From a virus, in IMG/VR virus record IMGVR_UViG_3300030328_001352, positions 332 to 23,592 of that record: a stretch of 23,261 nucleotides of DNA. One strand, 5' to 3'. Positions 13,928-22,826 of the stretch are shown here, in pieces (the stretch's first letter is position 1; the number at the start of each line of letters is the position of its first letter). Below the pieces are notes generated by a model. That model saw only the letters and a list, made by a program, of their open reading frames with translations. It had not been told where the DNA came from and did not search any database. A program made the position numbers and the translations under genes.

Positions 13928-14500
13928 TTATCCAGTAACAGTAAGGAATTTTTCACTGTTAACTAGTTCTGAAATCATAGCAATTCTGGCTTCCATTATT
14001 TTTTGGTCGCCTGTAATAGTAACACTATCATTTTTAGATTTACGGGTGAAAGTATTAATATAATACTTTTCTACATCTTTGAATGGTTCAGTCTCGCAGT
14101 TCCAAACTGAGGGTTTTTCCTCTGATTTATTTGGTGTTACTTCATACCATTTTATGATGCGAAGCTTTTTAATTATCTTTGCAATATCTTGTTTTTTCCA
14201 AGATTTGCAGGTGAAAACGTACCGCTTACCATTGGAAACGAAAAAGTTATTAGTCCCTTTTTTAGCTTCTGATTTTTTTACATTAGTAAATTGTTGGATA
14301 GTCATAAGCATTTTATTTTTTGCCATACCGCTACCCATGCTATCTACCAAGCGGATCAAGTAATTAGTATCACCGTTTGTATAGGTGCGTATAACACAAT
14401 CAACCAAATATAGTTGATAATCATCCCGACGGGTTTGATTAGATTTTTTAGCACCAGAAATTTTATTTGTCAGTTGTTTGTTTGTGAATAATGTCTTCAT
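13928..14500 (-). CDS. Basic protein of unknown function, 190 aa
   Basis: Lys-rich (many KK pairs), with QTRRDDYQLYLVDCVIRTYTNGDTNYLIRLVDSM (22-55), VKKSEAKKGTNNFFVSNGKRYVFTCKSW (74-101) and DIAKIIKKLRIIKWYEVTP (105-123). Predominantly helical; DNA or RNA binding is plausible. I do not recognise a family. It is the first gene downstream (on the - strand) of the large structured region, has no Shine-Dalgarno site, and a good promoter-like sequence (TTAACA-17-TAGAAT, 14502-14530) ends 1 nt before its ATG. It is closed by an intrinsic terminator, so it forms a one-gene unit. Confidence 0.75.
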   Translation of the reverse strand: MKTLFTNKQLTNKISGAKKSNQTRRDDYQLYLVDCVIRTYTNGDTNYLIRLVDSMGSGMAKNKMLMTIQQFTNVKKSEAKKGTNNFFVSNGKRYVFTCKSWKKQDIAKIIKKLRIIKWYEVTPNKSEEKPSVWNCETEPFKDVEKYYINTFTRKSKNDSVTITGDQKIMEARIAMISELVNSEKFLTVTG

Positions 14501-14501
14501 G

Positions 14502-14530
14502 ATTCTAGTTTTTTAAGTATCCTATGTTAA
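14502..14530 (-). promoter_or_regulatory. Promoter-like sequence abutting the 190-aa gene start
   Basis: TTAACA (14525-14530), 17 bp, TAGAAT (14502-14507) on the - strand, each one mismatch from consensus. RNA would start within the first codons, so either the boxes are fortuitous or an alternative start is used. Confidence 0.4.
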
Positions 14531-14548
14531 AGTTAAAGTTACGTATTT

Positions 14549-14610
14549 ATGAACGCACAATTGCGCCCATATCTAATCAATTATTTCTAATCAATTAGAT
14601 ATGAACGCAA
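14549..14610. repeat. Direct repeat TATGAACGCA flanking a hairpin
   Basis: TATGAACGCA occurs at 14549-14558 and 14601-14610, on either side of the 36-nt hairpin 14568-14603; the core TGAACGC recurs at 14881-14887. Probably part of the structured region rather than an independent repeat. Confidence 0.5.
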
Positions 14611-15240
14611 TAGCAAGCCAAACATGAAATGCAATGTTTGGATGTTATCCTTTGCCCGTTGGCTATCATTTCATATTGTTTGGCTTGTTATCACAATAAA
14701 CATAAAAACCCCTATGGCATACGCCAGTAACCGTTTTCATTAACAAACACAGCAAATATAGCCTAGTTATTAGCTAGACTGTTAATTACTTAATTGCTTG
14801 GCTAGGGATTGTCGTGATCTATCGCTGACCACTATGCGCCATGTTTTTTGGAAACATTGGAAAACCACCCGATCACCTTGTGAACGCCAGTCGGTATTTT
14901 TAGCCGTTCATGTTTTACCCGCTTATGTTGCTAGTGTTAGATATTGGATTATTAAACCGCCATCCGTATCCTAGCATTGGAACAACGATAAAATCGAATT
15001 ACATTCCCGCCAGACATTATTGAGCTAAAAACCATTAGCTGACTTGGTTGAGAACGGGGCTTTTTCAACTCCTGAGAGTTACCCGTTTGTTGCCCCGTCT
15101 TACCTGCTACCACCTTGTGTTTATTTTCATCTGCCCGATTTATCTAACAGACTAGGCCATTAGAACGGGTTGGAATGAAGTAGTGTCAGAACAACATTTT
15201 TTAAGTTCGCCTTGTTAGGCTCCAATGGGGCGATACGCCC
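14549..15240 (-). ncRNA. Candidate large structured noncoding RNA (about 700 nt)
   Basis: No frame of note on either strand, yet dense complementarity (+ coordinates): 14568-14577/14594-14603 with inner 14580-14583/14588-14591; 14610-14623/14678-14691 continuing as 14624-14631/14667-14674 (22 bp, 3-nt bulge); 14814-14819/14871-14876; 14841-14846/14852-14857; 14881-14886/14905-14910; 14929-14934/14971-14976 stacked on 14940-14943/14967-14970 and 14946-14949/14962-14965; 15023-15028/15035-15040; 15054-15060/15092-15098 around 15067-15071/15076-15080; a nested arm 15104-15189 (15107-15110/15180-15183, 15126-15130/15175-15179, 15134-15137/15166-15169, 15143-15147/15160-15164); 15209-15212/15217-15220; 15228-15232/15236-15240. 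Three CA/CA mismatches on + become tandem U.G wobbles on -, and one loop becomes GAAA, favouring the - strand. Ends are approximate. Confidence 0.6.
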
Positions 15241-15432
15241 GAATTAAATTAGATAATTTTAATATCCTTTTCTGAAAACATTTGCCCTAAATAAATCAGG
15301 TAGAAAAAAAATACAACCCCTAATTGAAAATAAATTGAAAATTTTTTATAACTTATTGATAATAAACAAAACATTTTTTTAAATTAATCCTAGCTAGACC
15401 GTTATTTTGTACAGTCTAGCTAGGATATGGGG
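15241..15432. other. Very AT-rich stretch with a 13-bp inverted repeat
   Basis: 15241-15385 is almost all A/T with homopolymer runs and no gene. It is followed by a perfect inverted repeat ATCCTAGCTAGAC / GTCTAGCTAGGAT (15387-15399 and 15414-15426, 14-nt loop). The stem lies 6 bp beyond the stop of the 54-aa ORF. It could be a weak terminator on the - strand (the T-rich tract is interrupted), a protein site, or part of a replication origin. Its right arm is also complementary over 12 nt to 14771-14782 inside the structured region. Confidence 0.6.
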
Positions 15433-15597
15433 TTAATGTATCTGCCAAAAATCGTCTATGATTTCAGGGTGTTCAATCACTAGTTCTGCTAGTCTCAATA
15501 ACTCTTCATCATTAAGTTTGTTTGCTAGATCTTCGATCAAAACATCCCCAGATGCTTCAAAAGATATACGTATAGCCGTCGCTTTTAAGTTGGTCAT
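15433..15597 (-). CDS. Small ORF, 54 aa
   Basis: From ATG 15597: MTNLKATAIRISFEASGDVLIEDLANKLNDEELLRLAELVIEHPEIIDDFWQIH. A short strand then two acidic helices. A TTG at 15618 would be in frame but lies in the -10 box of the promoter at 15617-15644. No clear Shine-Dalgarno site. It is isolated at the right end of the leftward arm, and is possibly the first gene transcribed. Function unknown. Confidence 0.6.
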   Translation of the reverse strand: MTNLKATAIRISFEASGDVLIEDLANKLNDEELLRLAELVIEHPEIIDDFWQIH

Positions 15598-22397: not shown

Positions 22398-22826
22398 ATG
22401 CGACAAGTAGCTATGGGTGGGGCGATTAAAAATGATTTATGGGTTACAGATATAGAAGAGGTTCCTGATCCCTCTCCACTACCAGAACTACCAGGATATC
22501 ATGTCCTTGTTCGTCCTGTATCTGTTAAAAGTCAGACTAAAGGTGGAATATTTATTCCAGACTCAACTAAAGAAGATATGGCTTATCTTACAACTGTAGG
22601 ACAAGTCATTGCTCTAGGTGATCTAGCATATGCTGAGAAAGACAAGTTTCCTAATGGTCCTTGGTGCCAAACAGGAGACTATGTATGCTATGGTAAACAC
22701 ACTGGCACCAAGATGTTTTATAAAGGTGTTAGACTTATTCTTCTCTTTGATGATCAAATTATTATGAGAGTAGAAGACCCCAAAGACCTTGATCCTACAT
22801 TTAATCTAACAAAAGGGTCTGCATGA
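22398..22826 (+). CDS. GroES-like co-chaperonin
   Basis: A 142-aa protein with a GroES fold: PGYHVLVRPVSV (32-43) as the first strand, a mobile loop SQTKGGIFIPDST (45-57) with a hydrophobic I-F-I tripeptide for GroEL binding, TVGQVIALGD (66-75), GDYVCYGKHTGTKMFYKGVRLILLFDDQIIMRVE (93-126). It is longer than host GroES (about 97 aa), with a 30-residue N-terminal extension and a 15-residue C-terminal tail. Like T4 gp31, it probably replaces host GroES so that GroEL can fold the phage capsid protein, which fits its place before the head genes. GGAGG lies 12 nt before the ATG, a little far. Confidence 0.9.
   Translation: MRQVAMGGAIKNDLWVTDIEEVPDPSPLPELPGYHVLVRPVSVKSQTKGGIFIPDSTKEDMAYLTTVGQVIALGDLAYAEKDKFPNGPWCQTGDYVCYGKHTGTKMFYKGVRLILLFDDQIIMRVEDPKDLDPTFNLTKGSA

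Follow-up and report, generated by a model that had tools for sequence, protein, structure and literature searches.

A hairpin-rich non-coding block beside a phrog_1448-family gene as a possible leader RNA of an exchangeable phage early cassette

Introduction

The early transcript of phage T7 carries long hairpins between its genes and is processed by RNase III. Larger phage RNAs have also been described, including GOLLD and ROOL, which are phage-encoded non-coding RNAs of 0.6-0.9 kb (PMC12286853).

We analyzed a 23,261-nt stretch of viral DNA (the window; positions 332-23592 of a 23.6-kb viral fragment, IMG/VR record IMGVR_UViG_3300030328_001352), in which a giant structured RNA had been proposed at 14549-15240. 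The locus resembles GOLLD and ROOL in its phage encoding, its size within 0.6-0.9 kb, and its non-coding nature. It differs from them in having no Rfam match, no tRNA genes in the window, and no multi-member covariation model. It shares with T7 an early operon with intergenic hairpins, together with a T7-like family A polymerase and primase-helicase. In contrast to the T7 intercistronic sites, the leader considered here is several hundred nucleotides longer, and its cleavage by RNase III is hypothetical.

Results

A non-coding block between the early and late genes

Minus-strand early genes occupy the left of the window (family A DNA polymerase, primase-helicase, ThyX, and GP88) and plus-strand late genes its right (terminase from 16096, portal from 19508). 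Between these arms, reading along the early strand, a 54-amino acid ORF (15433-15597, minus; ATG start, with a longer TTG form reaching 15618) is followed by a gene-free stretch and then by a 190-amino acid early gene (13928-14500, minus). The latter belongs to the phrog_1448 family (E 1e-12), whose function is unknown. The 54-amino acid ORF is 94% conserved in L062, a related locus described below. The gene-free block had been put at 0.9 kb. Indeed, the gap from the start of the 190-amino acid gene to the stop of the 54-amino acid ORF is ~0.93 kb, but the cassette portion of it, hereafter the block, covers only 787 nt (14501-15287, minus). Its left edge is the start codon of the 190-amino acid gene, and its right edge is defined by the loss of similarity to L062 at 15288.

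The block contains no convincing gene, in agreement with the original prediction that it codes for nothing obvious. Its longest ORFs encode 53 and 58 amino acids with codon scores of -0.011 (ambiguous) and -0.130, respectively, and six-frame pieces of the block matched nothing among the Pfam and PHROG profiles. A coding remnant was rejected on the basis of these negatives and the codon scores.

Judged by the closest cultured relatives of its terminase, which are Pelagibacter phages, this uncultured phage is probably marine; no terminase relative was found in GTDB genomes. Elsewhere in the window, an intrinsic-terminator-like hairpin with a 16-bp stem and a U-tract (AGAGGGGAATAG...CTGTTCCCCTCTTTTTT; 284-319, minus) likely forms the end of an early transcript. 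A GroES-like co-chaperonin (Cpn10, E 1.4e-10) is encoded at 22398-22826 (plus), and HTVC023P and DSL-LC04 likewise have a GroES gene, located upstream of their capsid gene. The early region includes a DAHP-synthase-family gene (PF00793; 5902-6681, minus), likely a metabolic gene of host origin.

Long hairpins on the early strand

Three long hairpins in and beside the block exceed chance. The longest stem of the window is an uninterrupted 24-bp hairpin with a 4-nt loop at 14560-14611 (minus). Four of its pairs are G-U wobbles when read on the minus strand, whereas the plus strand has A-C mismatches there, such that the stem is continuous solely as minus-strand RNA; the longest uninterrupted short-loop stem of the plus strand in this region has 10 bp. 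In shuffled sequences, the longest stem averaged 8.9 bp and did not exceed 18 bp (n=100). Adjoining this hairpin is an 18-bp helix (10+8; 14614-14687, minus), in which 14614-14631 pairs with 14667-14687 around a 3-nt bulge at 14675-14677. The third, a 16-bp hairpin just after the 54-amino acid ORF (15387-15426, minus), is retained in L062, where two compensatory (double) changes and two of G-U type separate the two sequences compared. Like the helix at 14560, it is complete only with minus-strand G-U pairs. Apart from the equal 16-bp terminator-like stem at 284-319, the 24-bp and 16-bp helices are the longest stems in the window. Double-stranded hairpins are thus present between early-strand ORFs at both 14560-14611 and 15387-15426.

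Folding energies were compared with those of shuffled sequences. The whole block was more stable than its shuffles, and more so on the minus strand (z -7.3 minus, -3.9 plus; 20 shuffles each), as looked for in a structured RNA. Values for 14549-15240 were -5.5 (minus) and -4.0 (plus). Most of the signal came from 14545-14744 (-6.1 minus, -6.5 plus), and 14521-14760 gave -8.9 (minus) and -4.4 (plus). By sub-region MFE z the strand difference was small, with the 3' domain about equal on both strands. The middle of the block (~530 nt; 14745-15287, minus) was weakly structured (z -2.0 minus, -2.5 plus). Its ensemble diversity on the minus strand was below that of all shuffles (0/40), compared with 8/40 on the plus strand, and this well-defined ensemble is a weak hint of real structure.

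These results support the prediction of long helices, located here at 14560-14611 and 14614-14687, while the hairpin at 15387-15426 falls outside the interval that had been claimed. The helix described as 22 bp with a 3-nt bulge exists with its bulge, but is 18 bp long. The more than a dozen helices that had been drawn carry little weight as evidence, since the middle reaches only z ~-2 and the signal comes mostly from 14545-14744. An ornate fold over the full 0.7 kb is likewise unsupported, the middle being only marginally structured.

Between the hairpins and the start codon of the 190-amino acid gene lies the motif ACGTAACTTTAACTT (14530-14544, minus), and a motif much like it follows intercistronic hairpins ahead of genes in the related locus L060. 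Inspection of the cassette revealed no clear Shine-Dalgarno sequence and no perfect promoter. Hairpins arranged as in the window also stand before several early genes of L060. Of the hairpins before early genes within L060 3950-5750, two lead into ACGTAACTTAAACT and a Shine-Dalgarno sequence. Fold z-scores in L060 are strong on both strands over 2 kb.

Apparent exchange of the cassette among relatives

Searches with terminase and GP88 yielded 104 loci, none of which carries the block. The similarity of L062 to the window breaks off at the stop codon of the 190-amino acid gene and again at 15288. The interval enclosed by these edges is occupied in L062 by another phrog_1448-like gene, only distantly related, and by a distinct block of 0.5 kb. 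The same alternative block and gene occur in L066 and L120, and a third alternative cassette occurs in L002 and L069; the L002 block is no more stable than expected by chance (z -1.6). The family profile that recognizes the 190-amino acid gene also finds L062, L066, L120, L002, L069, and phiKMV ORF3. In the loci with a profile match and upstream sequence, the phrog_1448-like gene follows a non-coding stretch 0.48-0.79 kb long. Judging from these junctions rather than from an observed transfer, block and gene appear to move as one unit.

Homologues of the block were found neither by blastn in 50,697 phage records, nor in 47 related viral records, nor by nhmmer over the relatives' loci. Scans of IMG/VR with 16-mers returned just isolated matches, the longest about 20 nt, and a 17-mer scan of GTDB genomes established no homologue, its matches falling in mutually unrelated hosts. 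The block consequently provides no covariation of its own. Peptide-pattern searches of IMG/VR and tblastn against phages recovered no relative of the 190-amino acid protein, and its AlphaFold model (pLDDT 53) was too poor for use.

No Rfam family matched at the gathering threshold, and weak matches up to E 10 were scattered. The GOLLD and ROOL covariance models gave no gathering-score match and were absent among the matches listed to E 10. HEARO and group I/II introns also had no Rfam match, and the flanking genes had no endonuclease match. GOLLD often lies near tRNA genes in phages and prophages, whereas the 23-kb window, from a record that is itself a fragment, contains none. Together, these negatives leave the suggested link to GOLLD and ROOL without support.

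A covariation-supported sister RNA in the same slot

In L062 (3429-3945, minus), L066 (4930-5412, minus), and L120 (1-216, plus), the same slot holds a sister block, absent from Rfam, that is a genuine covariation-supported structured RNA. Comparison of L062 with L066 revealed 13 compensatory pairs, whereas 200 nulls gave 3.5+-1.8 and at most 9; the alifold energy was -125.5, compared with -91+-8 in the nulls. With the last hairpin removed, 8 compensatory pairs remained against 2.1 (maximum 6, 200 nulls). The adjoining gene showed no excess (3 pairs, 4.7 expected). As these tests use two to three sequences and a structure taken from the same alignment, the counts are to be read against their nulls. 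Folding of the sister block favors the gene strand (-125.5 vs -114.3), and the 5' half of this block gave no covariation signal.

The last sister hairpin pairs over the Shine-Dalgarno sequence of the gene and co-varies in all three phages. The ribosome-binding site therefore lies inside the structure in L062, L066, and L120; in the window, the start codon is ~60 nt beyond the 24-bp hairpin. Directly upstream of the sister RNA in L066 is a perfect sigma-70-type promoter, TTGACA-19-TATAAT (1 found, 0.04 expected). It is the only perfect TTGACA-N15-20-TATAAT in 13.5 kb, and the sister block begins ~5 nt past the TATAAT. A possible lysine/arginine-rich ORF of 52-58 amino acids lies within the 5' half of the sister block (L062 3678-3836, minus, and the L066 equivalent), and its early differences between the two phages are mostly synonymous by eye.

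The sister RNA and the block are alike in slot, gene family, and structured strand, but differ in sequence, with no detectable sequence or covariance-model similarity. Searching the window, 59 loci, and 30 viral records with the sister covariance model returned its own members and one antiparallel self-match of the L062 hairpin. With its fold already supported, the sister RNA is a better target than the block of the window.

Gene-free leaders ahead of phrog_1448 genes in cultured phages

The phrog_1448 family was found in 379 phage records by tblastn, with relatives near the early-operon start in phiKMV-like, Acinetobacter, Brevundimonas, Vibrio, and P. putida phages. In six annotated podophages, ~0.35-1.4 kb is gene-free before the phrog_1448 homologue or before small genes just ahead of it. 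phiKMV, Brevundimonas phage AA, and the P. putida vB_PpuP phages share with the window this gene family near the early-operon start and the gene-free stretch ahead of it. In contrast to the block, their leaders show little structural signal, and they have no sequence similarity to it. Alignment folding of nine P. putida phages indicated that a ~1.1-1.3 kb stretch is mostly unstructured, with one hairpin-like window near column 701 (z ~-3.8 on both strands). An unannotated conserved stretch of ~1.1-1.3 kb also precedes the phrog_1448 homologue in PP496447.1 (624-1858) and 24 further P. putida phage records. Because a long gap is usual ahead of phrog_1448 genes, the gap itself is no evidence for a giant RNA, and the 700 nt of non-coding sequence held to need a function is not surprising by its length alone.

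Discussion

Our data suggest, with a probability of about 0.5, that the block is the non-coding leader of a swappable early cassette composed of early signals, structured RNA, and a phrog_1448-family gene, and that it acts mainly in cis. The non-coding block, its hairpins, the exchange of the cassette, and the covariation and promoter of the sister RNA in the same slot are directly supported. The leader reading is favored because the 24-bp and 16-bp helices are whole on the minus strand only, and because the hairpin at 15387-15426 is maintained in L062 by compensatory and G-U changes. It is further favored because the corresponding slot of L062, L066, and L120 holds an RNA with covariation that its adjacent gene lacks, with a last hairpin that covers a Shine-Dalgarno sequence and co-varies in three phages and, in L066, a perfect promoter directly upstream. 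The sharp edges at which block and gene change together, and the hairpins of like layout before several early genes of L060, argue in the same direction. Counted against it are the middle, which is barely above shuffles, the similar MFE z of the 3' domain on both strands, the lack of a block homologue, the missing clear Shine-Dalgarno sequence and perfect promoter in this cassette, and the chance-level fold of the L002 block (z -1.6).

In the proposed model, the early operon would open with minus-strand transcription of the block and run to the apparent terminator at 284-319. The end hairpins (15387-15426 and 14560-14687) most likely act in cis. They would mark sites of processing or protection of this transcript, like the RNase III hairpins of T7 early RNA, and would set translation of the 190-amino acid protein. 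Action in cis would be through processing, stability, or translation. Of the structured RNA originally envisaged, a protein-free, hairpin-rich early-strand sequence with no Rfam match stands, backed by the sister covariation; the ornate fold and the kinship with GOLLD or ROOL do not. The evidence is better matched by a simpler reading, in which the early operon begins with a structured 5' leader and promoter region, than by an ornate giant RNA.

The block may instead be a plain early promoter or leader spacer, with two or three processing hairpins and filler without selected structure for the remainder. The gene-free leaders of the six podophages, the mostly unstructured P. putida stretches, and the z of ~-2 in the middle are what such a spacer would predict. 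We nevertheless regard it as rather unlikely, given that covariation in the sister block extends beyond its last hairpin and that promoters are likelier beyond the 54-amino acid ORF than within the block. A large non-coding RNA of a new class, cut out of the early transcript between the hairpins at its two ends to work in trans (perhaps in host take-over or counter-defence, with the 190-amino acid protein as a possible partner), appears somewhat less probable again. Its ~0.8 kb size, the absence of an Rfam match, the well-defined minus-strand ensemble of the middle, and the hairpins near both ends are compatible with this idea, as are the sister RNA's own promoter and the exchange together with one gene family. 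Yet the middle folds weakly, the block is conserved in no phage searched, the separate transcript is itself conjectural, and the ribosome-binding site concealed in the sister RNA points to action in cis.

A function at the DNA level, such as a replication origin or a packaging site next to the terminase, might account for the position of the block between divergent early and late genes, with hairpins around a very AT-rich tract (15301-15400; 19% GC) that is highly conserved in L062. This is very unlikely, because the helices at 14560 and 15387 need minus-strand G-U pairs to be complete, the sister block is better folded on its gene strand, and close relatives swap the block for unrelated sequence, which is unexpected for an essential origin. 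Least credible is a decayed gene or mobile-element remnant: orphan sequence in a hypervariable slot and the ambiguous codon score of the 53-amino acid ORF could be so explained, but no frame matched Pfam or PHROG and no group I/II intron or other Rfam family was recovered.

Returning to the leader in its cassette, a bolder extension is that such cassettes encode an undescribed class of fast-changing 0.5-0.8 kb phage RNAs, each paired with a phrog_1448-family protein, exchanged with it between related phages, and acting with or on it in early infection. We offer this only as speculation that is probably wrong. Should the block prove to be just a leader, it would serve as a caution that gene-free gaps in phage genomes need not mean giant RNAs. 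The sister RNA of L062, L066, and L120 is in any case a concrete, testable RNA new to Rfam. If the cassette reading is true, early operons carry interchangeable RNA-plus-gene cassettes in which the RNA part evolves almost past recognition, and phrog_1448, a family without known function, would have a possible regulatory partner beside it.
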